Assembly (NCBI RefSeq): GCF_000381965.1
Contig: NZ_KB908454.1
Coordinates: 186,001 to 250,000, forward strand
Direction: 5' to 3'
DNA length: 64,000 bases
Source of the DNA: Oceanimonas smirnovii ATCC BAA-899
GTDB lineage: Bacteria > Pseudomonadota > Gammaproteobacteria > Enterobacterales > Aeromonadaceae
Positions 23,019-43,928 of the stretch are shown here, piece after piece. How positions within the stretch are numbered: the first letter of the stretch is position 1; each line of letters opens with the position of its first letter. The translations under genes and the position numbers were made by a program. Below the pieces are notes generated by a model. The model made no database searches, was not told the DNA's origin, and saw only the letters and a list, made by a program, of their open reading frames with translations.

Positions 23019-23057
23019 GGTGCTACTCGCTTTAACTGAAGATTTCTGTAAAAAAGG

Positions 23058-23097
23058 CACGCTACCGCCCTTGGGGTGCGGCTCCCAATTCGCCGAT
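23058..23097 (-). promoter_or_regulatory. JUMPStart/ops element in front of the capsule operon
   Basis: On the minus strand the sequence reads GGCGGTAGCGTG at 23069-23058, a perfect ops core, preceded by GGGAGCCGCACCCCAAG, which resembles the rest of the JUMPStart element. In enterobacteria ops pauses RNA polymerase and recruits the antiterminator RfaH. It lies 40 bases before the lipoprotein start, and kpsD, kpsM, kpsT, kpsE and rml genes follow. Confidence 0.88.
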
Positions 23098-23197
23098 TGA
23101 GTGTTATTTAAACGCTTTCGCATTTTGCATGGTCAGCGTTATTTTTTGCGGGCTGAATACTACCATTTTGTTTGTGGCGTTGCGATCAGCCCTTGGT

Positions 23198-24472: not shown

Positions 24473-24579
24473 TCAAATCCTGTGAAATTTTTTTGATGAT
24501 GCTCACTTTCTTGGCGGCGGGATAATAGCACAACTGAAATTTGGTATTAATGAAAAAGTGATCCCGTCCTTCGGACGGG

Positions 24580-27951: not shown

Positions 27952-27989
27952 CAGCGCTCTGGGGGCTGCAACCCAGGGGCGGTAGCGTG
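27952..27989 (+). promoter_or_regulatory. Full JUMPStart element with ops core, leading the Wzm-T2SS operon
   Basis: The sequence runs CAGCGCTCTGGGGGCTGCAA, then CCCAGGGGCGGTAGCGTG, matching the JUMPStart consensus as I recall it almost throughout, with a perfect ops core GGCGGTAGCGTG at 27978-27989. In enterobacteria this element recruits RfaH to suppress polarity in long surface-polysaccharide operons. The first start codon is 45 bases downstream, and the transcript would run about 11.5 kb to the terminator at 39550. Confidence 0.93.
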
Positions 27990-28034
27990 CCCGACGCATT
28001 TCGGGTTTAGCAGAGTGTAGCAGGAGCGCAGTTA

Positions 28035-28826
28035 ATGGGGTTTGGCGGAGTAAAACAAAAGGTGTCTGTGCTGCAGTCGTTGGTGGTGCGTGAGCTGCAT
28101 TCGCGTTTTAAAGGCACCAGCCTGGGCTTTTTGTGGACCATTCTTAATCCGCTGATGATGCTGGCTATTTATTCTACTGTGTTTGTGTTGGTGTTTAAGG
28201 CCAAGTGGTTGCTGCCCGACGGCAACACGGCCAATTATGGCTTAATGCTGTTTGTGGGCATTTTGTGTCACATTTGTCTGACCGATGTGATTTCTGCATC
28301 CAGCATGATTATTCGCTCCAATACCAACCTGGTCAAAAAAGTCATTTTTCCGGTGGAGCTGTTGCCCTTGTCTTGCGTGCTGGTAGCGTGCGTTAACTTG
28401 TTAATTGGCCTGGCGCTGGTGTGTGCATATGCTCTGTTAAGCGGAGCTGAGCTGTCTTGGCTGAGCCTGGGCTATATGGCGCTGGCAGTGTTTGTGTATT
28501 TTTTTACGCTGGCGGCGTTTGCATTTTTGCTGGCTACCCTGGGCGTGTTTTTTAAAGATGTGGCACAAATTACTCCTGTGCTGGGTATGATACTGCTGTT
28601 TACCAGCACGGTATTTTTCTCAGTGGAAACGGCCCCGGATGAGCTGGCCACGTTTTTGTATCTTAACCCTATCAGTAGCGTGGCCGACACCATAAGAGCC
28701 GGCTTTACCGGCCAGCATATTATGATGGAACACTTGGCTGTGCAGTTTGGTTGCTCGTTGCTGGCATTGTTGCTTGCTTACGTTTTCTTTAAAAAAATGA
28801 AAGTGGTTTTTGCAGATTTGCTGTAA
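28035..28826 (+). CDS. wzm: Polysaccharide ABC exporter permease, Wzm type
   Basis: This 263-residue membrane protein belongs to the ABC-2 permease family of O-polysaccharide exporters. It starts with LQSLVVRELHSRFKGTSLGF, LWTILNPLMMLAIYSTVF, and contains six hydrophobic segments; the C-terminal LNPISSVADTIRAGFTG is typical. The ATPase partner is not adjacent: the Wzt-type gene at 41858 is the best candidate, on the far side of the secretion genes and S-layer-like gene. It is the first gene behind the JUMPStart element and precedes gspE by 23 bases. Confidence 0.92.
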   Translation: MGFGGVKQKVSVLQSLVVRELHSRFKGTSLGFLWTILNPLMMLAIYSTVFVLVFKAKWLLPDGNTANYGLMLFVGILCHICLTDVISASSMIIRSNTNLVKKVIFPVELLPLSCVLVACVNLLIGLALVCAYALLSGAELSWLSLGYMALAVFVYFFTLAAFAFLLATLGVFFKDVAQITPVLGMILLFTSTVFFSVETAPDELATFLYLNPISSVADTIRAGFTGQHIMMEHLAVQFGCSLLALLLAYVFFKKMKVVFADLL

Positions 28827-28849
28827 GGCTGCCTGAAGGTGACTTTTGA

Positions 28850-30526
28850 ATGACTTTGTTTCTTGGTGAAATTTTGTGTGAGCAGGGTTTGCTCACGCAA
28901 AGCGATGTAGACAATGTGTTAAGCATTCAGCAGCAGGCAACTTCTGTGAAGCGCCCCTATTTTGGGGAAATTTGTGTTTCTCAGGGGTATTGCACAGAGG
29001 CCGATATTTTGCAGGCGCTGTCGGTGCAGCTGGAGCTGCCGCTGTTACAGCCGTTTTTGGATGAACACTGCGGTGGCGAGGCACCTGCCGATGAGTTGCT
29101 GGGCCAGTTCTTTAATGAAGAATGGTGGAGCCAGCAGCAGGCGTTTCCGGTACTGCTGAACAAGCAGCAGAACATCCTTTATATTGCTCAGCTGGATATC
29201 TGGGATGAGTTTGTTGCCAGCTCGGTAGAGCAGAATTATGGCCTGCAGGCACATCCGCTGTTGTGCTCCAACTATGAGTTGCGCCAGTTGTTTTCTAATG
29301 TGGAAGAACACGGCAGCATGCACGGTGGCAGTGTGCTGGAGCAGGAGAGCTCTACCGCCCCCGTGGTAAAGTTTGTGAATGAGTGTGTGCAGCGGGCCAT
29401 TAAGGAAAAAGCCTCAGACATTCACTTTGAGATTAACCGTAACAAGTTCAGTGTGCGTTATCGGGTGGATGGTGTGTTGCGCACCGTGGATCAGCCCAGT
29501 GTGTCTCAGCATGCGGCTGTGCTGTCGCGCATTAAGCTGATGGCCGGGTTGGATATTTCTGAGAAGCGTCTGCCTCAGGATGGCCGCATTCGAGTGCGTT
29601 TGTCGGGCATGCAGGTGGATATTCGGGTGGCTACCACGCCCACCGTTTATGGTGAGAACGCCGTGCTGCGTTTGCTTAGCAACGAGCAGCAAGAGCCTGC
29701 TGCTGCGGTGAAAAAGCTGGATATGTTTCCGGATCACCTGGTTGCCATCGACAAGATTATTTCGCTTAAAAACGGCATTTTTTTGATCACCGGCCCCACC
29801 GGCAGTGGTAAAACTACCTCGCTTTACACCATTTTGCACAGCCTTAACGACGACAATAACAAGATTATTACCGTTGAAGATCCGGTTGAATATCAGATGA
29901 AGGGGCTGACGCAAATTCAGGTGAACAGCGACATTGGCCTGGACTTTGCCACCGTGCTGCGCTCGGCGCTGCGGCAAGATCCCGACATTATGCTGATTGG
30001 TGAAATGCGGGATAAAGAAACCGCACAAATTGCCATTCAGTCGGCTCTTACCGGCCACTTTGTATTGTCTACTTTGCATACCAATGACGCCCCCAGCAGC
30101 TTTGTGCGTCTTAAAGATATTGGCATTCCCGATTATTTGATTAAATCCACCCTGGTGGGCGTAATGGCGCAGCGGCTGGTAAGAAAACTGTGCCCGGTGT
30201 GCAGCACGGCCGAGCATCACCAGGCAGCGCGGGCGGCCGAGCTTGGCTGGCAAGAGGTAAGCGAGTGCTGGCCACAGATTGCGCCGGCCAACCCCGAGTG
30301 GCGGGTGCCGGTGGGGTGCGATCATTGTAACGGCACCGGTTATAAAGGGCGGTTGGCCATTTTTGAGCTGATGGAGTGGTCACCCGATTACGACGTGAAC
30401 ATAGACATGCAGGCACTGCAGAGCATTGCCAACCAGCAGAATATGCGTAATTTGCGCCAGGATGCATTGCTCAGAGCTGCCTTTGGTGAAACCTCCATTG
30501 ATGAAGTGCTGCGGGTAGTGGGATGA
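28850..30526 (+). CDS. gspE: Type II secretion ATPase, GspE
   Basis: GspE powers assembly of the pseudopilus from the cytoplasmic side of the inner membrane. An N-terminal T2SSE_N/MshEN-like domain (FLGEILCEQGLLTQ, residues 3-16) is followed by the ATPase core: Walker A GPTGSGKTTS at about residue 315, Asp box TVEDPVEYQ, Walker B IMLIGEMRD, and a zinc-binding pair CPVC and CDHC. Length (558 aa) is slightly above the usual 500. It overlaps gspF by 4 bases (ATGA). Confidence 0.95.
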   Translation: MTLFLGEILCEQGLLTQSDVDNVLSIQQQATSVKRPYFGEICVSQGYCTEADILQALSVQLELPLLQPFLDEHCGGEAPADELLGQFFNEEWWSQQQAFPVLLNKQQNILYIAQLDIWDEFVASSVEQNYGLQAHPLLCSNYELRQLFSNVEEHGSMHGGSVLEQESSTAPVVKFVNECVQRAIKEKASDIHFEINRNKFSVRYRVDGVLRTVDQPSVSQHAAVLSRIKLMAGLDISEKRLPQDGRIRVRLSGMQVDIRVATTPTVYGENAVLRLLSNEQQEPAAAVKKLDMFPDHLVAIDKIISLKNGIFLITGPTGSGKTTSLYTILHSLNDDNNKIITVEDPVEYQMKGLTQIQVNSDIGLDFATVLRSALRQDPDIMLIGEMRDKETAQIAIQSALTGHFVLSTLHTNDAPSSFVRLKDIGIPDYLIKSTLVGVMAQRLVRKLCPVCSTAEHHQAARAAELGWQEVSECWPQIAPANPEWRVPVGCDHCNGTGYKGRLAIFELMEWSPDYDVNIDMQALQSIANQQNMRNLRQDALLRAAFGETSIDEVLRVVG

Positions 30527-31704
30527 AGCAATTTCGGTATATTGCCAGAAAAAAGGACGGCAGCCTGCTGGATGGCTGGCTGAACGAGGCATCTGAGCAA
30601 GAGGCGCGTAAGGTGCTGGGCCGCCGGCAGCTGAATATTGTGCTGCTGAAGCAGGAAGACCGCAGCGCTACGTTTAAAATCAGCCGCGAGTCGTTAATGA
30701 CCACGCTGCGGGAGCTGGCTACGCTGCGCGCCAGTGGCATGGCCATTGATGCCTGTTTGTTTTTGCTTACCGATACGGCGGAAGATAAAAACGTATATAG
30801 AGTATTCAAGCGGCTTTATGATGACGTATCTTCCGGCATGAGCTTTTCTGATGCGGTGGCCGCTCAGCCTGATGCCTTTCCGTTTTATGTGAGCTCCATG
30901 CTGCGCCTGGGTGAGGCCAACGGTAATATGTCGGAGGCGCTGCTGAGTGTGGCCGAGCGTATTGAGCGGGAAGAGAATCTGGTGTCTGAGGTTAAATCGG
31001 CGCTGACTTATCCGGCTTTTCTTATTTTTATTTGTGTGGCGGTAGTATTTTTTCTGTTCTCTTATGTGATCCCCAACTTCGAGAGCATGGTATCAAACGA
31101 CTCACAGCAGGGCGCGCTGGTGCGTCTGTTGAGCTGGGCCCGGTTCTTTAATGAGAATGCCACTGTGATTTATGGCCTGCTGATGGTGCTGGTGGGCGTG
31201 TTGTTTCATCTTTACCGCCAGGGCGTGTTGCAGAGCAAGCTGATGGTAGTGATTGGCCGGCTGCCGTTTTTAAGAGATTTGGTGTCGGCCTGGCAGATTG
31301 TTAACTTTTCCAGCAGCATGCAGAAGCTGCTGGAATCGAGAGTGGAAATTACCGAAGCGGTAGAAATTACGCTTAGCAACGTTTCCGACGCCAACATGGC
31401 AAGAAAACTGCACCGGGTGGTGGGTATGATCAAAGAAGGCCAGACCCTGGGCAGTGCGCTGGAGCAGCAGAATATTTTTCCACCCATGGTGATCCGTCTG
31501 GTTAAATCGGGTGAGGCCGGGGCCTCGCTGCCCAAGAGTTTTAAAGAGATCAATAACCTGTATGAGCGCCGCTTGACCAGAGGCATTAAGCGGGCGTTGT
31601 CTATTCTGGAGCCGGCCATCATCATGATAATGGGGCTGCTGGTGGGCTCTATTATGGTGGTACTTATTTCCGGCATTATTTCTGTTAACGATATTGGATG
31701 GTAA
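30523..31704 (+). CDS. gspF: Type II secretion inner-membrane platform protein, GspF
   Basis: GspF is the polytopic platform protein that GspE turns or pushes to extrude the pseudopilus. Two copies of the T2SSF domain are visible, each with three-helix repeats (LRELATLRASGMAIDACLFL and VNFSSSMQKLLESRVEITEA), and three transmembrane segments (FLIFICVAVVFFLFSYVIP; ATVIYGLLMVLVGVLFHLY; IIMIMGLLVGSIMVVLISGI). Length (393 aa) is normal. It starts inside the end of gspE. Confidence 0.95.
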   Translation: MKQFRYIARKKDGSLLDGWLNEASEQEARKVLGRRQLNIVLLKQEDRSATFKISRESLMTTLRELATLRASGMAIDACLFLLTDTAEDKNVYRVFKRLYDDVSSGMSFSDAVAAQPDAFPFYVSSMLRLGEANGNMSEALLSVAERIEREENLVSEVKSALTYPAFLIFICVAVVFFLFSYVIPNFESMVSNDSQQGALVRLLSWARFFNENATVIYGLLMVLVGVLFHLYRQGVLQSKLMVVIGRLPFLRDLVSAWQIVNFSSSMQKLLESRVEITEAVEITLSNVSDANMARKLHRVVGMIKEGQTLGSALEQQNIFPPMVIRLVKSGEAGASLPKSFKEINNLYERRLTRGIKRALSILEPAIIMIMGLLVGSIMVVLISGIISVNDIGW

Positions 31705-31708
31705 ATAG

Positions 31709-32131
31709 ATGAAAGTGGCAAAGCAGATGAAGAAAAATAGCGGCTTTACCTTGATTGAGCTGCTGGTGGTACTGGTACTGATTTCTTTGCTGGCGGGCCT
31801 GGTGGGTCCCAGCCTGTTTAACAAGGTGGGCTCTTCCAAAAGCAAGGTGGCCGAAGCCCAGATTGAGCTGCTGACCTCTGCCATTAATACTTATCGCCTT
31901 GATAATGGTGATTTTCCTACCACTCAGCAGGGCTTGCAGGCGCTGATGACAGAGCCTCAGGATGCCCCTTCCTGGGATGGCCCTTACCTGAGCAAGGATG
32001 TGCCGCTCGACCCCTGGGACAAGCCTTATGTCTATGAGCTGAAAGACAATGGCCAGTTTGCATTGTATACCCTTGGCAAAGACGGCCAGAAAGGCGGTGA
32101 AGACGAAAACCAGGATATTGGTAAATTCTGA
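31709..32131 (+). CDS. gspG: Major pseudopilin, GspG
   Basis: GspG is the main subunit of the pseudopilus. The prepilin signal is clear (KKNSG/FTLIELLVVLVLIS, cleavage after Gly12 with Glu at +5). The C-terminus has the calcium-binding end typical of GspG (LGKDGQKGGEDENQDIGKF). Length (140 aa) is normal. No prepilin peptidase is encoded in the window, so a housekeeping PilD must process it. The start could also be the second methionine at residue 7. Confidence 0.95.
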   Translation: MKVAKQMKKNSGFTLIELLVVLVLISLLAGLVGPSLFNKVGSSKSKVAEAQIELLTSAINTYRLDNGDFPTTQQGLQALMTEPQDAPSWDGPYLSKDVPLDPWDKPYVYELKDNGQFALYTLGKDGQKGGEDENQDIGKF

Positions 32132-32136
32132 TCTCG

Positions 32137-32526
32137 ATGATTCGGCATAAGGGATTTACCCTCATTGAGCTGCTGGTGGTGATGGCCCTTCTGGCCATCA
32201 CGGCCGCTGTAGTAGTGCCCGGTTTGTGGGGGCAATATACCCGCTTTCAGGAGCAGCAGCAGGTAGAGCAGTTTTGGCAGCAAGTGTCTGCTCACATACG
32301 CCATGAGCGCAGGCAGGGGCATAATGTGACCCTGCGTCAGAATACTGATGTGCTTGAACAGGCCGCGGCAAGGCATGAGCTGGTGGCCAGTATTAAGGTG
32401 CCGGTGATGTTTCGCAGTGACGGCATGGTGTCGGGCGGAGAAATTAACCTGACCACGGCTGCTGGCCGGCATTGGGTGATTTTTGTGTTAATGCCCGACG
32501 GAGAGGTGTTGATTGAAAAGCGCTAA
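32137..32526 (+). CDS. gspH: Minor pseudopilin, GspH-like
   Basis: A short prepilin with the signal RHKG/FTLIELLVVMALLAITAA at the N-terminus and a beta-rich remainder of about 110 residues, ending in WVIFVLMPDGEVLIEKR. Size and position after gspG match GspH, a minor pseudopilin near the pseudopilus tip. It starts 5 bases after gspG ends and overlaps gspI by 14 bases. Confidence 0.88.
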   Translation: MIRHKGFTLIELLVVMALLAITAAVVVPGLWGQYTRFQEQQQVEQFWQQVSAHIRHERRQGHNVTLRQNTDVLEQAAARHELVASIKVPVMFRSDGMVSGGEINLTTAAGRHWVIFVLMPDGEVLIEKR

Positions 32527-32917
32527 GCACAGCTCCGGCTTTACCCTTATTGAAGTGCTGGTGGCCATTACCATTATGGTGACGGTCATTTCGGTGGTGT
32601 TTCCTATGTTCAATCAGGCACAACTGCAGCATGCCAAGGCCGATGCTGTCCGTGAAAAAGCCATGATTGAGGAAAATATGCGCAATCAGATTGCGTTAAT
32701 TAATCCGGGTGAGCAACAAGAAGGTGCCGGTGATCTGGGTGAAGCGCTGCAGTTTGAGTGGAAAGCTGAGCCGGTGAGTGCAGCCATGCTGATCCGGGGC
32801 GAGCTGACTGCCGACTCTGATCAATTTTTGCAGTTGTATAAAATTGCGGTGGCTTACCGCAGCGGTAGTAATAGTGGTGCCTTTGAGTTTGAGCAGCTTG
32901 GCTGGTATGACAAATAA
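32513..32917 (+). CDS. gspI: Minor pseudopilin, GspI-like
   Basis: This 134-residue prepilin has the signal KHSSG/FTLIEVLVAITIMVTVIS, and its place between gspH and gspJ fits GspI, which nucleates the tip complex with J and K. The start is a TTG inside the end of gspH, giving MKSAKHSSG; no better start lies near. It overlaps gspJ by 11 bases, keeping the pseudopilin genes translationally linked. Confidence 0.87.
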   Translation: MKSAKHSSGFTLIEVLVAITIMVTVISVVFPMFNQAQLQHAKADAVREKAMIEENMRNQIALINPGEQQEGAGDLGEALQFEWKAEPVSAAMLIRGELTADSDQFLQLYKIAVAYRSGSNSGAFEFEQLGWYDK

Positions 32918-33599
32918 ACATAAGGGTTTTACGCTTATTGAGCTGCTGGTGGCCCTGGCGGTGTTTTCCATGGCCATTTCTTTGATTATGCTGGGCTTTG
33001 AGCAGGGCAGGCTTAACTGGAGCAAGAGCATAGATAACACCAGTGAAGTCAGAAAAATGTATAACCGCTATCAGTGGATTCAAAACACCTTTGCCCAGGC
33101 CAATACCTCCAATTTTGTGACTGCCATTGCCGAGGCCATGCCTTACTTTGAAGGCGATCAATATGTGCTTGCCTTTTTGTCTAATGCGCCTGCTATTAGT
33201 GGGCCGGGCACTTATGCCAAAGTGGAGTTTGAGTTTCAAAGTGAAGGCAGTGCCTATGCATTGGTATATCGTGAAAGCGTAAATCAGGATCCTTACCTTG
33301 GCTTTTATGGCGACACCGAGCCCAAAGAGCTGGTGTTGTTTGACAAGATAAAAAGCTACCGCATTGACTATTTGGCTCCGCCCAATTTTGAAGATGCGCT
33401 GTCGCGCTTCAGAGATGCCTCTGACATTCGTTATGAGCCCACTTGGTTGAAAGCCTACCAGGCTGATGAAGAAGGCTTGCTGCCACTGAGTGTTCATTTT
33501 GAGCTGCATTTTACCAGCGGAGAGGTAAAAGACTGGTTTTTCCCCATTCCGGTTTATCAGATGAGTGCCGACATTAATGCAGACACGGTGGTGATGTGA
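32907..33599 (+). CDS. gspJ: Minor pseudopilin, GspJ-like
   Basis: The open frame extends upstream to 32844, but the prepilin signal sits right after the ATG at 32907 (MTNKHKG/FTLIELLVALAVFSMAI), so that start is chosen; it gives 230 residues, the usual GspJ size. The remainder is soluble and beta-rich, without other motifs I recognise. It overlaps gspI by 11 bases and gspK by 4. Confidence 0.88.
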   Translation: MTNKHKGFTLIELLVALAVFSMAISLIMLGFEQGRLNWSKSIDNTSEVRKMYNRYQWIQNTFAQANTSNFVTAIAEAMPYFEGDQYVLAFLSNAPAISGPGTYAKVEFEFQSEGSAYALVYRESVNQDPYLGFYGDTEPKELVLFDKIKSYRIDYLAPPNFEDALSRFRDASDIRYEPTWLKAYQADEEGLLPLSVHFELHFTSGEVKDWFFPIPVYQMSADINADTVVM

Positions 33600-34477
33600 A
33601 TAAGCAGCAAGGCGTGGTGCTGCCGCTGGCACTGATTGTGATCACCATTATGGTGACCATGGCGAGCATTTTGCTGGTGCGCTCCAATGCCGAGATTGAT
33701 GAAGCGGCCCTGGTGCAGGAGCAGTGGCAGGCCAGGCTGAAAATTAACGATGCCGAGCAAGAACTGCTGCTGTCTATGTTTGCCGGCGAGCAGTTACCCG
33801 GTGGTTATAATGTGGGCGATTTGTTTATTCCTACCGATGGTACCTTCATCAAACTGAAAAACGGCGTAGAGGTAGCGGTGCAGGATCTGGCCGGTTTGCT
33901 GAGTTTGCACTATTTACGCAGGGCCGAGCTGGTAAGGTTGTTTACCGGCTATACCGATGAACAGCAGGCAACCGACATTGTTAACCATATTATTCGCTGG
34001 CAGCGTCAGAATGCCGACGGAGAAGCGCTGGCACTGGAGCGCAATGCGCCATTCAGAAGCCTGGATGAATTAATGCTTATTCCTGGCATTACTCCCGACA
34101 TGTTCAACGACAACGACGAGCGCCCGGGCCTGCGCTCTGTGCTGGCGCTTTCTGGCTCCAGTTTTGTTAACTTTGCTGCTGTGCCCGATTTTTTGCTGGT
34201 GCATGCCTTTGGCCTCACCGATAACGATGTGTCGCGGGTAACCAGCCTGAAAGAGCGCAGAAAGTGGGACGATATTTCTGCCATGATTTTTGATTTGGGT
34301 ATTGCTGTGGATCAGTCTTTGATCCCCAGCTCCCGCTATCGGGTTTTGTATAAATATAACGGCGTTAGCGCCCGTGCTGAGTATCAGGTAAGAACCACTA
34401 TTCCGCTGCCACCCAGAAAGCGTCTCTGGTACTTTCCGGATCATGAGCGGCATTTTTTAATGAGCACGGCACAGTAG
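33596..34477 (+). CDS. gspK: Minor pseudopilin, GspK-like
   Basis: GspK caps the pseudopilus tip. The N-terminus (MNKQQGVVLPLALIVITIMVTM) is a prepilin-like signal without the canonical +5 Glu, as is usual for GspK. The body shows the helical domain expected of the family (LLSLHYLRRAELVRLF; SLDELMLIPGITPDMF). Length (293 aa) is normal. The start is a GTG overlapping the gspJ stop (GTGA). Confidence 0.9.
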   Translation: MNKQQGVVLPLALIVITIMVTMASILLVRSNAEIDEAALVQEQWQARLKINDAEQELLLSMFAGEQLPGGYNVGDLFIPTDGTFIKLKNGVEVAVQDLAGLLSLHYLRRAELVRLFTGYTDEQQATDIVNHIIRWQRQNADGEALALERNAPFRSLDELMLIPGITPDMFNDNDERPGLRSVLALSGSSFVNFAAVPDFLLVHAFGLTDNDVSRVTSLKERRKWDDISAMIFDLGIAVDQSLIPSSRYRVLYKYNGVSARAEYQVRTTIPLPPRKRLWYFPDHERHFLMSTAQ

Positions 34478-34491
34478 GCTAAGAGGTAGTT

Positions 34492-35586
34492 GTGTTAAAT
34501 AAAATTCAGAAAGAGCACTTGCTGTGGCCCTTGTCCTGCTCTGGCAAGCCAACCACGCCGGCTGGCAAGGTGGGGCGTTTTGATCGGGTAATTGGCCTGG
34601 TGCCCCAGAGTGTGTGCCTGTTCAAGCAGTTTCAGTATGAAACCGACATTATTGCCAAAGACGACATTGCCGGCTGTGTAGAAAATGAGCTGAAAACCCT
34701 GGTGGAGTGGCCGGATTATGATTTTTATTATCTGGTTAACGAAATAAGCCACCACTGGCAGGTGTCGGTATGGATTTGGCAAAAGCAGCAGGCAGAGTTT
34801 GCCGATGGCATTACGCATATTGTTCCGGCCATGGCTTATTACCTGGGCATGATGAATGCAACAGGCCAGAAAAGTGTGCTGTTTTACAAAGAAGATAACG
34901 CCACCTTTACCTGCACTGTGTCTGCGCTGGATGTGATTGAACGCATTGGATCGTTGCGCATGGCGCACCAGCGTCATTTGGTGCTATCTTGCCAGCGCGA
35001 CAAGGTGGTGTGCTTTACCAATGACGCTGAGCACATTGGTATTGATCTGGAATGGAGTGAGTTAAAGCCAAACACCAGCTGGCGTGTGCTGCAAGCCGGC
35101 AAGCGTGCCGACAAGCTCGACCTCACCAACCCTGTGCCGCTTTATCGTGCTGTTGGGGTGTTGTCTGTGCTATGGCTGGGTTATATGGGGCTGGATTATG
35201 CCTGGCTGAACAGCAAGCATAGTGCCATTAAAGACGAGGTAAATGTGCTGCAGGCCGAGGTGCAGGATGTGCTGGATGCGCGCAGCCATTTTCAGGATGT
35301 GTCTAAAAATATGGACCAGATTAATGCTGCACTGAACCAGCAGCAGCAGCTGGTGGGCTATTTGGATGAGCTGCTGAAAGCGCTGTCTCCAGAGGTGGTA
35401 ATTGAGCGTATTTCTTATAAAGACCGCGTGGTAACACTGAGAGGAGCGGCCACCGACAGTAATCAGTTTCTTGAAAGCCTGACCTCCATGAACACGGTAG
35501 ATACTGCCCGCCTGCTGGGGGAAATTACCTTTAACAATGAGGGCATGCAGGTGTTTCGTGCAGAAGTAAGGCTGAAAAACTCATGA
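34492..35586 (+). CDS. gspL: Type II secretion assembly protein, GspL-like
   Basis: GspL is a single-pass protein that ties GspE to the inner membrane. The first 220 residues form an actin-like cytoplasmic domain (RFDRVIGLVPQSVCLFK), the transmembrane segment is VGVLSVLWLGYMGLDYAWL (about residues 221-239), and the periplasmic part begins with a coiled coil and ends in a ferredoxin-like domain (VVIERISYKDRVVTLRGAA). At 364 aa it is near normal. The start is a GTG with AAGAGG upstream. It also resembles PilN in its last third. Confidence 0.83.
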   Translation: MLNKIQKEHLLWPLSCSGKPTTPAGKVGRFDRVIGLVPQSVCLFKQFQYETDIIAKDDIAGCVENELKTLVEWPDYDFYYLVNEISHHWQVSVWIWQKQQAEFADGITHIVPAMAYYLGMMNATGQKSVLFYKEDNATFTCTVSALDVIERIGSLRMAHQRHLVLSCQRDKVVCFTNDAEHIGIDLEWSELKPNTSWRVLQAGKRADKLDLTNPVPLYRAVGVLSVLWLGYMGLDYAWLNSKHSAIKDEVNVLQAEVQDVLDARSHFQDVSKNMDQINAALNQQQQLVGYLDELLKALSPEVVIERISYKDRVVTLRGAATDSNQFLESLTSMNTVDTARLLGEITFNNEGMQVFRAEVRLKNS

Positions 35587-36209
35587 ATATCATTGACCGT
35601 TTACCCCTTAAGAACAAGGAAGAACTGAAACGTGAGCTGTCTAGCCCTCTGGTGCAATGGGCGGGCTTGGCCATTTTGCTGATTGTGGTGTTTATGTTTT
35701 TGGTACTGCCTTATATGCAGTGGCGTGGCCAGTTTATTGACACCATTAAAGTAGACTCGGCGCAGCTGATTAAACTTGAGTCGTTAAACGCCAAGCGCGA
35801 CAGCGTGAACACTATTCGTGAAAAAGTGGATGCCATTCACCAAAAGGCTCAGAGCCATTTGCTGCAGGCGCGCACCTATAATGGTGCTATTTCTGAGCAA
35901 TTAAGCACCCTTGAGGGCATTTTTAACCCCTTGAACATTACTTTTGAGTCACGCCGTTTTGGCGATGGTGCTTATGAAAGCTGGCTGGGCGAGCGCATTC
36001 ATACCGAGTGGGGATTTGTAGGCAGCAGCCAGAGTCTGATGGACTTCCTGTATCGTATTGCCGATGCAGACATCATTATTATTCCCGATGAGATAGAGAT
36101 GATCCCTTATCAGGTGAGAGGCGAGGCTAAATACAAGCTCTCGGGCAAGTTCATTTCATACCGAAAGCTGGCTCTTGATCAGATTAAGCAGCAGGAGCGT
36201 TTAAGATGA
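35583..36209 (+). CDS. gspM: Type II secretion assembly protein, GspM-like
   Basis: This 208-residue protein has one transmembrane segment at about residues 25-43 (WAGLAILLIVVFMFLVLPY) and a periplasmic coiled coil followed by a small ferredoxin-like domain. That is the GspM/PilO layout; GspM pairs with GspL. It overlaps gspL and the GspC-like gene by 4 bases each. Confidence 0.82.
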   Translation: MNIIDRLPLKNKEELKRELSSPLVQWAGLAILLIVVFMFLVLPYMQWRGQFIDTIKVDSAQLIKLESLNAKRDSVNTIREKVDAIHQKAQSHLLQARTYNGAISEQLSTLEGIFNPLNITFESRRFGDGAYESWLGERIHTEWGFVGSSQSLMDFLYRIADADIIIIPDEIEMIPYQVRGEAKYKLSGKFISYRKLALDQIKQQERLR

Positions 36210-36697
36210 GCCTGTTAACGCCGTTTGATATAAGGCTGATTGCCGGCTTTGCAGCCTGTGCCGTGCTGGCTACTGTGGTGACTGCCTGGTCTATTAGCAG
36301 TGATGCGGAAGACGATGCGGCCAGTGGCAATAATTTTCGGTTTGCGCTGAACGAGTATGAGCCCTGGCCAGATTTGGCACCGGGCAACCTGTTTGTGAGC
36401 GGACGCAGCCGAAATGATGCAGATAAAAAAGCAGAAAAGCAGGAAGTTGCAGAAGAAGTGGTCTCTTCCGAGCCGGTGCTGACCACCATTATTACCCGTG
36501 GCAGCGAGAAATTTGCTGTTTTTCTGATCGGCAAGACCAAGAAAATGGTGCAGGTGGGCGACAACCTGAATGAGGTTGCTAAAGTGACGGCAATTAATGA
36601 CTATACCGTCACCATTTCCACTGCTGATGGCACCAGCGATTTTGTTATTTTCCCATCCTCCAGTGACAAGCTGAACCAGGTTTCTACAGATGCGTAA
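36206..36697 (+). CDS. gspC: GspC/XpsN-like inner-membrane protein
   Basis: A single transmembrane segment (IAGFAACAVLATVVTAW, about residues 12-28) is followed by a proline-containing linker and a short beta domain (TTIITRGSEKFAVFLIGKTKKMVQVGD, shown here as FAVFLIGKTKKMVQVGD) like the homology region of GspC or PilP. It should link the inner-membrane platform to the secretin. There is no PDZ domain; at 163 aa it is shorter than GspC of classical systems and closer to XpsN. It directly precedes gspD with an 8-base overlap. Confidence 0.78.
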   Translation: MSLLTPFDIRLIAGFAACAVLATVVTAWSISSDAEDDAASGNNFRFALNEYEPWPDLAPGNLFVSGRSRNDADKKAEKQEVAEEVVSSEPVLTTIITRGSEKFAVFLIGKTKKMVQVGDNLNEVAKVTAINDYTVTISTADGTSDFVIFPSSSDKLNQVSTDA

Positions 36698-38840
36698 ATT
36701 TAGTAAAAAGGAATATACCCCCGCATACAGCAAGTTGGCGCTCTGTGTGCTCTCCGGTCTGGTGTTGTCTGGCTGTGTTACTCAGCCAGATATGACAGTA
36801 AAACCCGTGCAGGCCACCAAAATGAGTGATGCCTCCAGCCAGGTGATTGTAAACGAGACTGAAGGTGCCTTGTCTGGCCAGGGCGGGCGCTTTATTAATC
36901 CGCGCAGCAATGTGCCGGCAGCACCCTTGTTGCGACAGGCTGAGTCTGGCACTGCTGAGCGTAACAACATTGCCCTGCCTGAAGAAAAAGTAAGCATTAA
37001 TGCCGATGGCATGCCGCTTAACTATTTTATTAACCTGGCGCTGGGGGACGTGCTGGGGCTGGATTATATTGTTGACGAGTCTTTGGCAAACAATGAACAG
37101 CTGGTAACCCTGCGGGTAACCCAGCCGGTGAGCAGTGATCGTATGCTGGGCTTGATTGAAGAAGCCCTGCAGGTAAATGGCGTGATGCTGACGGTTTCTG
37201 ATGGTCTGGTTACGGTGATTCCTTCTTCCAAGGGCGAAAAAGGGAATATTTCTCTGCTGGCTGAAACAGTGGGTCCCAAGCTGAAGTATGGCAACGTGGT
37301 AGAGATTATTCCTATTTACTATTTGCCCATGATTGAAGCCAGCAGCATGGCCGAGCGTATTGTGCGCGAGAGCCAGGGAACTGTGCTTATTCAGAACAAC
37401 CTGAATGCCCTTATGGTGATCTCTCGACGGGATGATATTGAGAAAATCCATCAGCTGCTGACAAAACTTGACGTACCCAAACGGGTATCTAGCCATATGA
37501 CGGTGGTGCAGCCTTCTTATCTTACTCAGCAAGAGCTGATGGAAGATTTGCAGCGTGCACTGAAAGCTGCCGGCGTGCCGGTGTATGAAGAAGAAGGCAA
37601 TAACGGTGTGGTGCTGGTGCCCATGTCCAATAATATTCTGCTGATCTCATCATCTACCCGGGCCTGGCTGGATTATACCCAAGATTGGGTAACGCGGCTG
37701 GATCGGCCTAAACCAGTGGGCAGCGGCGATGGCGTATATGCCTATTATATGAAGAACACCAAAGCAGCAGACGCCTGGGAGGTGGTGTCGGCTATTTTTG
37801 GTGCCCAGAAAGAAATGGGCGAGGGCGAGCAGCCCGGTGTTGACCTGCTGGCCAATGCAAACAAAGAGATTGAGCGCAACAACACCAATATGGTGACGCC
37901 CACCTATCCATTGCCCGGCAACCGTGGCGGCATGCGTGATAATAACAATAATGCCCGCGCCCAGAGCATGAGCGTGGTAACTGATGAATATAGAGTAGTG
38001 GTGGATGCCAAGCGTAACGCACTGATCTTTACCGGTCGCTACAGCGACTATCAGCGTCTGGTGGAACTGCTCAAGTTTGTGGATCAGCGCCCGCGGCAGG
38101 TGCTGCTGCAGGCTGTTATTGCCGAGGTGTCTTTGCAAGACAGCACCAGTTTGGGTGTGTCCTGGGATATTACTGACGGTGACATAACCGGCGGCACCAG
38201 TGCGCTGGCAAGCTCTGGCTTTCTTAACCTGACGGGTGTGTTCTCTGATGTAACCGCCCGGCTGAACGCCGCTCTGACTAATAGCCAGGCGCGTATTTTG
38301 TCTACGCCGCGCATTATTGCGCTGGATCAGGAGTCGGCCAGCATTAACGTGGGTGACCAGATAGCGGTGAAAACCGGCCAGATTGGCGGCTCTGATAACA
38401 ACCAGGAAGTGGCCACATTTCAGTATATTTCTGTAGGCCTGACGTTGGATATTACGCCTTCCATTAACCAGAATGGCCTGGTGGAGCTGACTATCAGTCA
38501 GGAAGTAAGTGTTCCCGGCACCGGTGGCGGTGGTGACACACCGCCCATACAAACCCGCTCCCTTAACACCAAGCTGCTGGCCGACAGCGGCGACACTGTA
38601 TATATGGGGGGGTTGATCCGGCGTAACACCACCACCACAGAGCGCAAGGTGCCTTTCTTTGGTGATATTCCCGGACTGGGCTATTTGTTCAAGTCTCAGG
38701 AAGACGACGTTAACATTACCGAGCTGGTACTGCTGATCACGCCTTATGTGATTAACTCCCGGGAAGACGCCGGCTTCTATACCAATGAGTTCCGTACCAT
38801 TACAGGTTGGAACCCGTTTGAGCCGCAAGGGCAAAGCTGA
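36690..38840 (+). CDS. gspD: Secretin, GspD
   Basis: GspD forms the outer-membrane channel. The N-terminus is a lipoprotein signal (SGLVLSGC, Cys29), so this secretin may be self-targeted through lipidation; no pilotin gene is seen. N0-N1-N2-N3 domains follow (NYFINLALGDVLGLDYIVDE; VVEIIPIYYLPMIEA), then the secretin core (RQVLLQAVIAEVSLQDSTSL, ARILSTPRIIALDQESASI, VYMGGLIRRNTTTTERKVPF). An Asn-rich insert lies in the N3 loop (about residues 395-425). Length (716 aa) is normal. Its stop and the start of the sulfotransferase share one base. Confidence 0.95.
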   Translation: MRKFSKKEYTPAYSKLALCVLSGLVLSGCVTQPDMTVKPVQATKMSDASSQVIVNETEGALSGQGGRFINPRSNVPAAPLLRQAESGTAERNNIALPEEKVSINADGMPLNYFINLALGDVLGLDYIVDESLANNEQLVTLRVTQPVSSDRMLGLIEEALQVNGVMLTVSDGLVTVIPSSKGEKGNISLLAETVGPKLKYGNVVEIIPIYYLPMIEASSMAERIVRESQGTVLIQNNLNALMVISRRDDIEKIHQLLTKLDVPKRVSSHMTVVQPSYLTQQELMEDLQRALKAAGVPVYEEEGNNGVVLVPMSNNILLISSSTRAWLDYTQDWVTRLDRPKPVGSGDGVYAYYMKNTKAADAWEVVSAIFGAQKEMGEGEQPGVDLLANANKEIERNNTNMVTPTYPLPGNRGGMRDNNNNARAQSMSVVTDEYRVVVDAKRNALIFTGRYSDYQRLVELLKFVDQRPRQVLLQAVIAEVSLQDSTSLGVSWDITDGDITGGTSALASSGFLNLTGVFSDVTARLNAALTNSQARILSTPRIIALDQESASINVGDQIAVKTGQIGGSDNNQEVATFQYISVGLTLDITPSINQNGLVELTISQEVSVPGTGGGGDTPPIQTRSLNTKLLADSGDTVYMGGLIRRNTTTTERKVPFFGDIPGLGYLFKSQEDDVNITELVLLITPYVINSREDAGFYTNEFRTITGWNPFEPQGQS

Positions 38841-39523
38841 TGAAGCTGATTTCTCTTCATTTGCCTAAAACTGCAGGGTCCAGCTTCAGAACTACGCTGG
38901 AAGAGGTGTTTGGTGAGCGCCTGCTGTGTGATTATGGTGACAGAAGCATCAGCAAGCCACCTGTGCAGCGACACAGAGAAGTGCTGTCATCAGCGCTTGC
39001 TGTGGCTGAGCAGGGAGTAGAAGCCCATGATTGTATTCATGGCCACTTTTTGCCGGTGAAATATTTGCCACTGGCCGATAGTGAGCCTTGTACCTTTATT
39101 ACCTGGATGCGCCATCCTGTTGAACGGTTGATATCTCATTATCATTATTGGCAGCAGACCTATGATCCCATGCTTTCAGCGCCGCACCATAAGCGAGTGA
39201 TAGAAGAAAAATGGTCATTGGAGCAGTTTTGCCTTAGTAAGCAGTTTCGTAACATTTACACTCAGTATTTGTGGGGGTTTCCCCAGAGTAACTTCAGTTT
39301 TGTGGGCATAACAGAGCATTACAGTGAAGATATGGATTACTTCTCTCAGTATGTATTAAAACACCCTGTTAACAAGCACACAGTGAATGTGACCAGCGGC
39401 GGTCAAGCCCGTGAGCAGCTGCCTCCAAGCATACAAGAAGCTGTGGAGCGCTTTCATGCCGCAGATATGCAGCTTTATGAGCAGGCACTACGAAGGCGGG
39501 CAAAAAGACATCACATTAACTAA
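38840..39523 (+). CDS. Sulfotransferase-family protein at the end of the secretion operon
   Basis: The protein (227 aa) begins with LISLHLPKTAGSSFRTTLEE, the 5'-phosphosulfate loop of sulfotransferase family 2-like enzymes, and continues with FITWMRHPVERLISHYHYW, the 3'-phosphate-binding region. It lacks a signal peptide and so acts in the cytoplasm. The start overlaps the gspD stop by one base (TGATG), meaning translation is coupled to the secretin gene; this is unusual company for a sulfotransferase. The target may be the O-polysaccharide exported by Wzm/Wzt. A terminator follows at once. Confidence 0.85.
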   Translation: MKLISLHLPKTAGSSFRTTLEEVFGERLLCDYGDRSISKPPVQRHREVLSSALAVAEQGVEAHDCIHGHFLPVKYLPLADSEPCTFITWMRHPVERLISHYHYWQQTYDPMLSAPHHKRVIEEKWSLEQFCLSKQFRNIYTQYLWGFPQSNFSFVGITEHYSEDMDYFSQYVLKHPVNKHTVNVTSGGQAREQLPPSIQEAVERFHAADMQLYEQALRRRAKRHHIN

Positions 39524-39555
39524 AAAAGCGGACCTCAGGGTCCGCTTTTTTGTTT
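39524..39555 (+). terminator. Intrinsic terminator of the Wzm-T2SS operon
   Basis: An AAAAGCGGACC stem, TCAG loop and GGTCCGCTTTT stem are followed by a T-run (39524-39552), right after the TAA of the sulfotransferase gene. It separates the secretion operon from the S-layer-like gene. Confidence 0.93.
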
Positions 39556-39791
39556 CCGTGTTGTTAATAAATGGATAAAGCCTGAGGGGCTCGATTGGGG
39601 CTTTTTTTACATTTTAGTAGTGCGGGATTTTGTCGCAAAAATCCTCCTATATTCCTTATTTTTAGCATAAAAGCTAATTGAAATTTCTTCTGGATCTAGA
39701 TATGGCGTCATTTTTTTTGCGTTTTGCAATAAATGTGATCTGAGTGAGTCTTTCAGGTGATGCAAGACGAAATTTTTCAGCGCTTAGCTTG

Positions 39792-39821
39792 TTGACACTC
39801 GCGCCAGATTTCTACTATCCT
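39792..39821 (+). promoter_or_regulatory. Strong sigma-70-type promoter for the S-layer-like gene
   Basis: A perfect -35 TTGACA stands at 39792-39797, followed after 18 bases by TATCCT at 39816-39821 (or TACTAT at 39813 with 15-base spacing). AT-rich tracts lie upstream. Transcription from here would give a leader of about 140 bases before the ATG at 39970, as often seen for stable S-layer messages. Between 39556 and 39791 I see no gene. Confidence 0.7.
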
Positions 39822-39969
39822 CACTGCGCGCACTTCGGGGTGCTGTGTTACATATGCTTATCATTGTGACCTTCACAGTGCGCCGAAGGTTGATGAGGAA
39901 CAGGGAGCGCTTGCAGTGGTGTAAGTGACTCATTTCCAAAAAGCAAAATGGATCCAAAAGGAAACAATA

Positions 39970-41715: not shown

Positions 41716-41733
41716 AGATAATTGGTTTGTTGC

Positions 41734-41760
41734 AAAGGGAGCTTCGGCTCCCTTTTTTTA
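41734..41760 (+). terminator. Intrinsic terminator of the S-layer-like gene
   Basis: A 9-bp stem AAAGGGAGC with a TTCG tetraloop and GCTCCCTTT is followed by a T-run, 19 bases after the stop codon. A second hairpin (TGCCTGCCAAA / TTTGGCAGGCA) stands directly after it at 41761-41783. Confidence 0.95.
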
Positions 41761-41797
41761 TGCCTGCCAAATTTTGGCAGGCACTATTTTTGCCGGC

Positions 41798-41826
41798 TCA
41801 ACATGGCTGTTGTGCTCTGGTATACT
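41798..41826 (+). promoter_or_regulatory. Promoter candidate for the wzt operon
   Basis: TCAACA at 41798-41803 and TATACT at 41821-41826 are separated by 17 bases, and the wzt ATG lies about 32 bases further on. It is placed after the S-layer terminator, so wzt and the genes after it can be expressed independently. Confidence 0.55.
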
Positions 41827-41857
41827 GCTTCCTTTTGTGGGGCTAAGAGCGGTTTAT

Positions 41858-43174
41858 ATGGCGGTTATCAGGGTAGAGCAGGTATGCAAGTCGTTTGTGA
41901 CTACCCAGTCACCCTGGGCGCTGATTAAAAAGCACCTGTTTAACTCTGTAAATGTTCCTTATTTTCAGGCGCTTAAAGGTATCAGCTTTCATGCTGAAGC
42001 AGGGGAAACCATCGGCATTGTGGGCCATAATGGCTCGGGTAAGTCGACCCTGCTGCAAATTATTTGCGGAGTAATGCAGCCAGACAGCGGCAAGGTAACC
42101 GTAGAAGGCCGGGTAGCGGCGCTGCTTGAGCTGGGCTCTGGCTTTAATCCCGAGTTTACCGGCCGTGAAAATGTCTATTTTAATGCCATGCTGTTGGGCC
42201 TGAGCCGGCAGGAAGTGGATGCTTCTTTTGATCAGGTTGTTGCGTTTTCCGGCATTGGCGACTTTCTGGAGCAGCCGGTAAAGACCTATTCCAGTGGCAT
42301 GATGTTACGTTTGGCTTTTTCGGTCATTATTCACAGCAACCCACAGATATTAATTGTGGATGAAGCGTTAGCCGTGGGTGATGAAGCATTTCAAAGAAAG
42401 TGTTATGCCAGGCTTAAACAGTTACAGGCCGCAGGTGTTACTTTGCTGTTTGTCTCTCACTCTGCCGGCCAGGTTATTGAGCTGTGTGATCGTGCTGTGT
42501 TGCTGGACCATGGTGAGATGTTAATGATAGGTGAGCCCAAGCAGGTGGTGCATCATTATCATAAGCTGTTGCATATGGAGCAGGGGGAGCGAGAGCGTTT
42601 TCGTCTGCATTTGCAGCAATTTGGCCATACTGACAGCTATGTTCCTACAGATGAAGAGTCTGAAAATTCACCTGCTCCTGTTATCTCTGAAGCGGTTTTT
42701 AATGCAGAACTGCAACCCGAAACCACTGTCTGGTATTCCTCTCGCGGTGCTGTGCTTAGTGCACCTCATTTACAGAATTTAAACGGCGAAAAGGTTAATT
42801 TGCTGGAGTCGGGCCAGCGCTACCGTTATTGTTATCATGTCACCTTTGAACAGGATGCGTTTGAAGTTGGTTTTGGCATGATGATTAAAACGCTGAGTGG
42901 CATACCCATTAGCGGTGCTACAACCACCCGAAATCATCAGCATCGCATTCCGTTTGTGGCGGCTGGCAGTTGTTTTACCATTAAGTTTGAGTTTGTATGT
43001 GCATTGCGAAATGGCACTTATTTTCTTAATTGTGGCTGCTCTGCACTGATTAATGGTGAGCGTGAGTTTTTACACAGAGGGGTTGATGTAGCCATGTTTC
43101 AGGTGATTGCCGAATCTGAAGATGCTACCGGAATGATTGATTTGTGTGCTGGCTTTATGGCCGAAGAAGTTTGA
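41858..43174 (+). CDS. wzt: O-polysaccharide ABC exporter ATPase, Wzt type with glycan-binding domain
   Basis: The N-terminal 240 residues are an ABC ATPase: Walker A GHNGSGKST (about residues 55-63), signature YSSGMMLRLAFS, Walker B ILIVDEALAVGDEAF. The C-terminal part (about residues 285-435; VGFGMMIKTLSGIPISGATT, GTYFLNCGCSAL) resembles the Wzt carbohydrate-binding domain that recognises the finished O-chain. At 438 aa it is a long-form Wzt. The open frame starts at 41675 inside the S-layer gene; I chose the ATG at 41858 because MAVIRVEQVCKSF is the normal ABC start. Its likely permease is wzm at 28035. AbcA of A. salmonicida holds the same place after vapA. Confidence 0.9.
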   Translation: MAVIRVEQVCKSFVTTQSPWALIKKHLFNSVNVPYFQALKGISFHAEAGETIGIVGHNGSGKSTLLQIICGVMQPDSGKVTVEGRVAALLELGSGFNPEFTGRENVYFNAMLLGLSRQEVDASFDQVVAFSGIGDFLEQPVKTYSSGMMLRLAFSVIIHSNPQILIVDEALAVGDEAFQRKCYARLKQLQAAGVTLLFVSHSAGQVIELCDRAVLLDHGEMLMIGEPKQVVHHYHKLLHMEQGERERFRLHLQQFGHTDSYVPTDEESENSPAPVISEAVFNAELQPETTVWYSSRGAVLSAPHLQNLNGEKVNLLESGQRYRYCYHVTFEQDAFEVGFGMMIKTLSGIPISGATTTRNHQHRIPFVAAGSCFTIKFEFVCALRNGTYFLNCGCSALINGEREFLHRGVDVAMFQVIAESEDATGMIDLCAGFMAEEV

Positions 43175-43184: not shown

Positions 43185-43928
43185 ATGCCAAAGGTTAACC
43201 TTTTTATTGTCGGCACTCAGAAAGGGGGAACTACCGCCTTAGCCGAATTTATGTCTTTGCACCCTGATGTTTGCGTGGCTAAGAATAAAGAGGTGCATAT
43301 TTTTGATCATGAAGCAGCTCCAGGCATGAGTGCTGAAGAGATTGACGAAGCGTATTCTCAGCACTTTTCTCATTATGGTGGAGAGCGTTACCGCTGTGAT
43401 GCAACGCCGGTTTATATGTTTTTTTCCGACGTTGCTCGCCAGCTGTTGCAATATAACAAAGACGCTAAAGTAATAGTGTTGCTTCGTGACCCCGCAGAGC
43501 GGGCTTTGTCACATTTTCACATGCAAAAGCGACAGGGTAGTGAGCGTTTTTCTTTTCTTTCAGCCTTGTTAATAGAAAACCATCGTTTAAAAAAAGACAG
43601 TAAGCCTCGCTGTTTCAGCTCTGCCTGGCGCGCTTTTAGCTATAGAAGCAGAGGTTATTATAGCCGTCAGTTAGATGCTATATTTGACAATTTTAAAAAA
43701 GAACAGGTTCTTATATTGAGAAATAATGATCTTGTTTATGATCATTATGGCTCATTGAATAAAGTTGCTGAATTCTTGGGTGTGGAGCGTTTTTGTTGCG
43801 AGCCGCGTAAGGTTTTTTCTGGCGAGTACAAGAAAAGCGTTTTTCAACGACTTTTACTTACTTTTTTAAGGTTGAGTTACTTTCCTGAACGTGTTCGTTT
43901 ATATCGGCGTTACGGAATAAAGCTTTAA
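43185..43928 (+). CDS. Sulfotransferase-family protein
   Basis: The N-terminus MPKVNLFIVGTQKGGTTALAEFM (split: FIVGTQKGGTTALAEFM) is the 5'-phosphosulfate loop of PAPS-dependent sulfotransferases, and KVIVLLRDPAERALSHFHM is the 3'-phosphate region. The frame opens at 43137, but the ATG at 43185 directly before the motif is preferred; it gives 247 residues. It follows wzt by 10 bases and probably sulfates the polysaccharide that Wzt exports. Confidence 0.88.
   Translation: MPKVNLFIVGTQKGGTTALAEFMSLHPDVCVAKNKEVHIFDHEAAPGMSAEEIDEAYSQHFSHYGGERYRCDATPVYMFFSDVARQLLQYNKDAKVIVLLRDPAERALSHFHMQKRQGSERFSFLSALLIENHRLKKDSKPRCFSSAWRAFSYRSRGYYSRQLDAIFDNFKKEQVLILRNNDLVYDHYGSLNKVAEFLGVERFCCEPRKVFSGEYKKSVFQRLLLTFLRLSYFPERVRLYRRYGIKL

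Follow-up and report, generated by a model that had tools for sequence, protein, structure and literature searches.

In Aeromonas salmonicida A450, wzm lies directly upstream and wzt directly downstream of a block that joins a type II secretion system (T2SS) to vapA, an arrangement described in 2015 (PMC4483657). Mutants of A. salmonicida lose the surface layer (S-layer) when vapA is deleted and lose O-antigen when either wzt or wbbB is deleted, and an ops element lies upstream of the cluster (PMC4483657). In the related cluster of A. hydrophila AH-1, the upstream wzm is truncated and a complete wzm-wzt pair follows downstream (PMC4413209). Here we describe a locus of this published kind in 64,000 nucleotides of DNA (hereafter the window) from Oceanimonas smirnovii ATCC BAA-899, whose genome of 3.28 Mb in 26 contigs we label G000. 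The genus Oceanimonas is a member of the Aeromonadaceae. The locus is real and looks intact, and every gene named in an earlier note on the window is present, all on the plus strand, in the order wzm, eleven T2SS genes (E, F, G, H, I, J, K, L, M, orf2, and D), sulf1, a terminator, vapA, tandem terminators, and wzt. From the identity, order, conservation, and co-occurrence of these genes, it is very probably a VapA-type S-layer biogenesis locus with its own divergent T2SS and one Wzm/Wzt exporter, the two genes of which flank the T2SS-vapA block. By analogy with Aeromonas, VapA would cross the inner membrane by means of a signal peptide and the outer membrane through its own T2SS (spsE to spsD, with orf2 as the GspC part), and would then assemble into a lattice held by the O-polysaccharide of lipopolysaccharide (LPS), which the single Wzm/Wzt transporter would export. 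No earlier report of a VapA locus in Oceanimonas was found among the titles and abstract openings searched.

The earlier note had suspected that the 581-residue secreted protein is an S-layer subunit, and a search against the NCBIfam families bears this out. The protein matches NF050048 (S_layer_VapA, "VapA family S-layer protein"; cut-off 200 bits) with 691 bits over model positions 1 to 526 of 526, and its start resembles a signal peptide by eye. Neither this protein nor any other in its genome matches the Slr4 family (PF19526). The protein is 98% identical to its counterpart in Oceanimonas sp. CHS3-5 and 87% identical to that of O. baumannii ATCC 700832. Within the genus, 3 of 23 genomes carry VapA, and within the family, 4 of 75 do; across the order it exceeds the cut-off in 5 of 394 sampled genomes, and a sixth, G203, has a sub-threshold match of 19 bits. 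Six VapA loci were compared. Three come from Oceanimonas genomes (G000, G025, and G335) and two from a different family (G077 and G037); the sixth belongs to G404, taken to be A. salmonicida on the strength of gene sizes that agree with Table 2 of PMC4483657. When the six proteins are aligned, invariant positions concentrate in the last ≈150 residues, and the final five, VDFTL, are identical in all of them. Sequence matches to lamin tail entries in the PDB (E 0.03 to 0.07) were judged to be chance. The same literature yielded no report of a lattice or an S-layer in Oceanimonas; the "surface layer protein" OmpAII of strain GK1 (PMC4601865) is, by its name, not VapA.

The gene order is not a product of chance, as it recurs in other genomes. 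The split exporter fits five further VapA loci, drawn from two families: two are intact (G335 and G077, as in G000 itself), two are cut at contig ends, and the wzm-T2SS block of G037 has the opposite orientation with respect to vapA-wzt. The exporter pairs an ABC-2 permease with an ATPase that carries a Wzt_C domain, the only match to that domain in the genome. Close Wzt homologs (E ≤ 1e-90) occur in 7 of the 394 genomes of the order, namely the five with VapA, G144, and G220. G220, from the same family (genus g2, read as Aeromonas), has the order rml-wzm-T2SS-subunit-hexapeptide transferase-wzt, with a Pfam Slr4 protein (56.7 bits, cut-off 25) in the place of VapA. In G144, the order is rml-wzm-wzt-terminator homolog, only 10 bases separate wzm from wzt, and the stretch examined contains no S-layer genes. 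Slr4 itself occurs in 17 of 388 genomes, each time with gspE and gspD nearby (on the other strand in G075 and G150), and wzm/wzt were found near it in two of the 17 (split in G220, adjacent in G213), a count whose sensitivity is limited by the queries. G374 (L100) carries three Slr4-family genes in tandem behind one T2SS. The split exporter is not a new arrangement, because A. salmonicida A450 provides the published precedent (PMC4483657). The earlier note was right about which parts are present, but its idea that splitting the exporter keeps them together during transfer is unsupported.

The split need not have any function. There is an even chance, in our judgment, that a single insertion placed the S-layer block between wzm and wzt, where it has been retained by descent, a reading that is compatible with a VapA biogenesis locus. 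In its favor, G144 has the same rml-wzm-wzt-terminator order with nothing between wzm and wzt, G230 (below) keeps little between the flanking genes, and the six T2SSs of the VapA loci form one clade. For an empty site, we compared four congener regions (G326, G413, G085, and G230) beside a hydrolase gene that occurs in 16 of 23 genomes, 3 of which carry VapA and 4 of which were the regions compared. In G326, G413, and G085, other neighbors stand beside the hydrolase gene. In G230, counterparts of the flanking genes 51902, 53238, and 53751 lie ≈7 kb from it, and a search with 30 window proteins recovered nothing between except a 26% ABC-ATPase match to wzt. Against a single insertion, G220 has an Slr4-family subunit and a distant T2SS (26 to 51% identical) at the same place, which implies either two insertions at this site or an exchange of the subunit, and in G037 the left block has been inverted yet kept.

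Comparison within Oceanimonas separates the S-layer genes from the glycan genes. Over 25 to 40 kb of the window, DNA identity per 500 bases is 77 to 91% with G025 and 75 to 88% with G335, and vapA reaches 94 to 96% with G025. Inside wzt, identity to both genomes falls to 66 to 68%; from 43.5 kb to 47 kb (G335) or 48 kb (G025) almost no DNA can be aligned, and identity returns to 72 to 89% over 48.5 to 50.5 kb. The proteins follow the same course: among the three Oceanimonas loci, identities are 86 to 98% for VapA, 80 to 86% for the ATPase half of Wzt, 58 to 64% for its C-terminal half, 53 to 60% for Sulf2, and 25 to 45% for the terminator homolog encoded next. The terminator homologs of O. baumannii and G404 share 56% identity over 1107 residues. 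The GC content of the divergent glycan stretch is 0.41 to 0.43, compared with 0.55 in a 93-kb sample of the genome. These patterns suggest that the O-antigen genes were likely exchanged, with a boundary midway through wzt, and that the S-layer block remained in place. As read from these alignments, the locus does not move as a single unit, and VapA accommodates differing polymerase genes. Two observations leave the proposal that the split holds the parts together without support: the glycan half (the C-terminal half of Wzt, Sulf2, the terminator homolog, and the glycosyltransferase region) has diverged or been replaced among the three Oceanimonas genomes where wzm, the T2SS, and vapA have not, and the inversion in G037 has rearranged the two blocks relative to each other.

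Given the AH-1 precedent (PMC4413209), it might be asked whether wzm and wzt are partners at all, and wzm is indeed less conserved between genera (32 to 42%) than wzt (57 to 63%). We regard a lack of partnership as highly unlikely, however, as wzm is full length here, no second wzm stands beside wzt, the other two ABC2_membrane matches in the genome lie beside the ABC_tran gene at 19167 and on contig C5, and the homologous wzm and wzt are adjacent in G144.

The T2SS genes adjoin the subunit gene, and a second T2SS lies elsewhere in the genome, on contig C14; the case of a sole T2SS in the genome, which the earlier note had named as one that would refute its reading, therefore does not apply. 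The genome encodes six secretins: SpsD, the GspD of C14, and four others that we read from their neighbors as PilQ, MshL, and two of Tad-like loci. The C14 system exceeds the equivalog cut-offs for GspE (674 versus 630 bits), GspD (501 versus 351), and GspM (174 versus 60), and its GspF, GspK, and GspB matches fall below theirs. The S-layer T2SS stays under the equivalog cut-offs for E, F, and D (502, 219, and 334 bits). At thresholds that we set ourselves, the S-layer T2SS is present only with the subunit gene: SpsD-like secretins (57 to 100% identical) are found in all 4 VapA-bearing genomes among the 75 of the family and in no others, 7 further genomes matching SpsD at 29 to 33% only. Likewise, of the 394 genomes of the order, SpsE at E ≤ 1e-125 is found in all 5 whose VapA exceeds its cut-off and in no others. 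The T2SSs of the six VapA loci form one clade apart from the second T2SS, with support of 100/99 for GspE and 100/100 for GspD; PilQ and MshL were left out of the GspD tree, roots are midpoints used for drawing only, and the placement of the G220 secretin, which sits on a long branch, is left open. That the T2SS beside vapA is a general exoenzyme system adjoining it by accident is very improbable, because although its components belong to the T2SS superfamily, the system exists in the sampled genomes only where VapA does, diverges from the equivalog models, and shares its genome with another T2SS that, judged by the secretin, is common to six congeners without VapA. Directly behind the second secretin (L038:11370-15572, contig C14), two genes encode proteins with DUF7507 and sub-threshold Ig-like matches, which are possible substrates of the C14 system.

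Within the S-layer T2SS, orf2 probably supplies a GspC reduced to its HR domain. The counterpart in A. hydrophila AH-1 is annotated as hypothetical (PMC4413209). A profile of six orf2 sequences gave three PDB matches at E ≤ 5, the two best of which are GspC (E 0.019 and 0.47). The predicted structure has a helix at residues 6 to 37, resembling a transmembrane helix, and a small beta domain of HR/PilP-like type at residues 87 to 149 that superposes on the HR domain of GspC (3oss_C) with Z 9.7; PilP is nearly as close at Z 8.8. Beyond the GspC, PilP, and GspB entries and one Dot/Icm entry, the next unrelated chain reaches Z 3.5. Model confidence is 63.5 pLDDT for the whole protein and about 76 to 87 for the domain. 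Foldseek alone returned no match under E 0.001 (the best, to PilP, was 0.01), and no Pfam or NCBIfam family, including the curated GspC model, matches at E ≤ 0.001. We therefore class orf2 as a protein predicted to work like GspC and not as a member of the GspC family. The C14 system has a short protein at the equivalent place with a weak GspC match of its own (32.6 bits, cut-off 150).

Several observations weigh against the assignment of the locus to VapA biogenesis. Family-model scores are good for E, F, G, and D, but H through K and M match weakly, and L and orf2 match no family model. No prepilin peptidase gene was seen in the T2SS block, although no aimed search was made, and the S-layer T2SS must therefore borrow one. 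The wzm-T2SS and vapA-wzt parts fall on separate contigs in G025 and G404, a situation that is consistent with the split but does not demonstrate it. The VapA protein has no Pfam match at E ≤ 0.001, so its identity rests on one NCBIfam model and 46% identity to an Aeromonas protein. An AlphaFold model of VapA from six sequences is poor (mean pLDDT 49.9, pTM 0.33), too weak for a test of the fold.

Downstream of wzt, two further genes bear on the end of the O-chain. sulf2 is present in 6 of 6 VapA loci, and its product matches a sulfotransferase in the PDB at E 3e-21 and heparan sulfate 3-O-sulfotransferases at E ≈4e-16. The terminator homolog follows wzt in 8 of 8 loci compared, comprising the six VapA loci, G220, and G144. 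The N-terminal parts of these proteins (first 245 residues) match Pfam Sulfotransfer_3 in 7 of 8 cases at E ≤ 0.01, with scores near or below the curated cut-off; at full length, the G404 and G220 proteins have no Pfam sulfotransferase match at E ≤ 0.01, and those of G077 and G144 have matches below cut-off. With a profile of this domain, 25 of 26 PDB matches at E ≤ 1 are named sulfotransferases, and the remaining one, labeled a polyketide synthase, covers the same residues as the next match. A GMHRSGTS motif is invariant. In a heptad test on the best 63-residue window, a lenient control because that window is the best of many, the number of 1000 shuffles that reached the observed signal was 0 for G000, 1 for G335, 3 for G077, 8 for G037, 13 for G220, 16 for G404 (window at 613, outside its P-free stretch), 205 for G144, and 460 for G025. 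A coiled coil is thus favored in the first four, is less sure in G404 and G220, and is not favored in G144 or in G025, where the open reading frame (ORF) encodes only 552 aa. Because the Sulf2, Wzt, and Wzm models were built from the six VapA loci and the terminator model from the eight proteins, matches to these training sequences hold by construction; independent matches came from G213 (terminator and Wzm) and G302 (Sulf2, 72 bits).

Known enzymes with such an architecture terminate O-chains and control how long they grow (PMC11231755). We infer from domain content that the protein encoded after wzt may likewise end each O-chain and set its length, with the C-terminal domain of Wzt reading that end. 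A more specific proposal, which we hold only tentatively and consider rather unlikely as it stands, is that VapA-type S-layers depend on O-polysaccharide chains of fixed length whose ends are sulfated, the sulfate-capped chain being the anchor of VapA. In such a scheme, the sulfotransferase-like module of this protein, which also has a coiled-coil ruler and often a fused polymerase, would end each chain with sulfate, the C-terminal domain of Wzt would export capped chains only, and VapA would bind the sulfated end or else sulfate added by Sulf2. This would account for the homogeneous O-antigen length said to be common to S-layer Aeromonas strains (PMC3658858), for the sulfotransferase gene in the A. 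salmonicida cluster, which its authors could not explain because the repeat unit showed no sulfate (PMC4483657), and for the occurrence of 98% identical VapA proteins beside different polymerase genes. Conversely, one A. salmonicida O-polysaccharide was read with an ordinary terminal rhamnose and mixed chain lengths, sulfate going unmentioned in the passages available from that paper (PMC11355949), and wild-type A450 gives ladder repetitions on gels (PMC4483657). No earlier proposal of a sulfotransferase-type O-chain terminator was found in the titles, abstract openings, and passages searched.

vapA is probably its own transcription unit, since terminators flank it, its TTGACA element is conserved, and its leader is structured. 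The TTGACA element is invariant across five aligned loci. Promoter-like sites are not enriched in the region (12, versus 16.1 in shuffles), so only the conservation of this site counts as evidence. The fold of the leader (z −3.0) was equaled in stability by 1 of 200 shuffles. The long leader (39828-39969), a candidate for control of mRNA stability, begins with GCGCNCTNNGG in the five aligned loci. The earlier description of the gene as highly biased is right as to rank, its effective codon number of 34.8 being the lowest among 32 window genes measured, but the margin is slight (35.0 to 35.6 for the next three). Transposase fragments occur 3′ of sulf1 in G025 (L033:973-1536) and between spsD and vapA in G077 (L028:15894-16565). 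The assemblies of G025 and G404 have contig ends in this same spsD-vapA interval, and the spacer ahead of vapA may be an insertion hot spot.

Table 1. Features of the VapA locus and the adjoining glycan genes in the O. smirnovii window
Feature	Position	Strand	Basis
ops-like octamer GGCGGTAG	27978-27985	+	49 nt upstream of wzm; weak
wzm, ABC-2 O-polysaccharide export permease	28035-28826	+	PF01061 66.5 bits, cut-off 26.9; 3 ABC2_membrane matches in genome
spsE/gspE, ATPase of dedicated T2SS	28850-30526	+	TIGR02533 502 bits, below equivalog cut-off 630; 59-94% to five other VapA loci
spsF/gspF	30523-31704	+	TIGR02120 219 bits, below cut-off 424
spsG/gspG, major pseudopilin	31709-32131	+	TIGR01710 155 bits, above cut-off 88.9
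spsH/gspH, pseudopilin	32137-32526	+	TIGR01708 37.9 bits, below cut-off; prepilin motif
spsI/gspI, pseudopilin	32513-32917	+	TIGR01707 25 bits, below cut-off; prepilin motif
spsJ/gspJ, pseudopilin	32907-33599 (ATG within longer ORF 32844-33599)	+	Prepilin motif; 31-91% in five other loci
spsK/gspK	33596-34477	+	NF037980 33.6 bits, below cut-off
spsL/gspL	34492-35586	+	Position and SpsL size in A. salmonicida; no family match; 28-90% in five other loci
spsM/gspM	35583-36209	+	NF040576 22.2 bits, below cut-off
orf2, probable GspC of S-layer T2SS, 163 aa	36206-36697	+	Transmembrane-like helix and GspC-HR/PilP-like domain
spsD/gspD, secretin	36690-38840	+	PF00263 157 bits; TIGR02517 334 bits, below cut-off 351
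sulf1, sulfotransferase-like	38840-39523	+	PF03567 (Sulfotransfer_2) 19.9 bits, below cut-off 22
Rho-independent-type terminator 3′ of sulf1	39524-39555	+	Hairpin read by eye
vapA promoter-like site, TTGACA-18-TATCCT	39792-39821	+	10 of 12 consensus positions
Structured 5′ leader of vapA	39828-39969	+	Fold z −3.0
vapA, S-layer subunit, 581 aa	39970-41715	+	NF050048 691 bits, cut-off 200
Two tandem terminators 3′ of vapA	41734-41783	+	First also legible in G025 and G335
wzt, ATPase and C-terminal substrate-binding domain	41858-43174	+	PF00005 (ABC_tran) 84.8 bits; PF14524 (Wzt_C) 93.9 bits
sulf2, glycan-sulfotransferase-like	43185-43928 (start codon not settled)	+	PF00685 69.9 bits
Predicted O-chain terminator/polymerase	43976-47056	+	Sulfotransferase-like N domain, coiled coil, GT25-like C-terminal part (below cut-off)
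GT2 glycosyltransferase	47057-47998	+	PF00535 63.7 bits
Bacterial sugar transferase (chain-initiating type)	48032-49411	+	PF02397 235 bits
O-antigen ligase/polymerase-type membrane protein	49401-50624	+	PF04932 81.5 bits

Among the remaining features (Table 1), the octamer upstream of wzm has 8 copies in the window where 1.6 are expected and is weak evidence for an ops element. By tblastn, sulf1 is found in 3 of the 6 VapA loci, the three of Oceanimonas; G404 has a contig gap at this place, so its absence there is not established. A second polysaccharide locus, kps-like by reading, adjoins the S-layer locus on the minus strand at window positions 5000 to 24500, with an ABC-2 permease gene at 19847, the ABC_tran gene at 19167, and genes for a Poly_export/SLBB protein and a Capsule_synth protein; within it, GC content drops to 0.34 to 0.37 at 5 to 10 kb. 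Divergent from wzm, at 25212 to 27757 on the minus strand, lie a cytochrome P450-like gene (labeled by reading alone) and a weak lipid-hydrolase match, a pair that is also kept in both other Oceanimonas VapA loci.

Among the genomes examined, these results add marine Oceanimonas and a second family to Aeromonas as carriers of the VapA/T2SS/O-antigen module. The genomes amount to a natural experiment on anchoring, in which a subunit that stays 98% constant is paired with differing glycan polymerase genes, and in which G144 has the same exporter and terminator-like genes and no S-layer. Together, these relatives raise the question of whether protein armor needs sugar chains with a special end. 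If the cap hypothesis were true, a single enzyme would link the anchoring of the S-layer with the length and the export of the chains.

The closest described system is the wbsalmo/A-layer cluster of A. salmonicida A450, which has the same split and the order rml-wzm-spsE..D-vapA-wzt-sulfotransferase-large "WbbB" (PMC4483657). The window proteins are 46% (VapA), 56% (SpsD), and 63% (Wzt) identical to those of G404, the gene sizes of which fit the A450 cluster. Unlike A450, Oceanimonas has an extra sulfotransferase-like gene between spsD and vapA and, where A450 has rml genes, divergently transcribed unrelated genes upstream; its VapA is also longer (581 residues versus 502 in G404), and its glycosyltransferases differ. 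A. hydrophila AH-1 likewise places a T2SS and a subunit gene inside an O-antigen cluster beside wzm/wzt but differs in its truncated upstream wzm and complete downstream pair (PMC4413209); the G220 locus, with its Slr4-family subunit, shares the sizes of E, F, G, and M with that cluster. Slr4 of Pseudoalteromonas tunicata (PMC7821379) and NpdA of Paracidovorax (PMC10765051) are also encoded beside T2SS clusters, although both belong to subunit families different from VapA. For the chain end, the closest parallels are WbdD, WbbB, and the Klebsiella pneumoniae O4/O7 enzymes, with an N-terminal transferase, a coiled coil, optional C-terminal glycosyltransferases, and a gene near wzt (PMC11231755, PMC3482155). 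The terminator homologs may share the WbdD/WbbB architecture: their genes lie near wzt in the six VapA loci, G220, and G144, and the coiled coil is clear in 4 of 8. They differ in that their N-terminal module is sulfotransferase-like; the caps named for the described enzymes are methyl, methylphosphate, and Kdo (PMC11231755).

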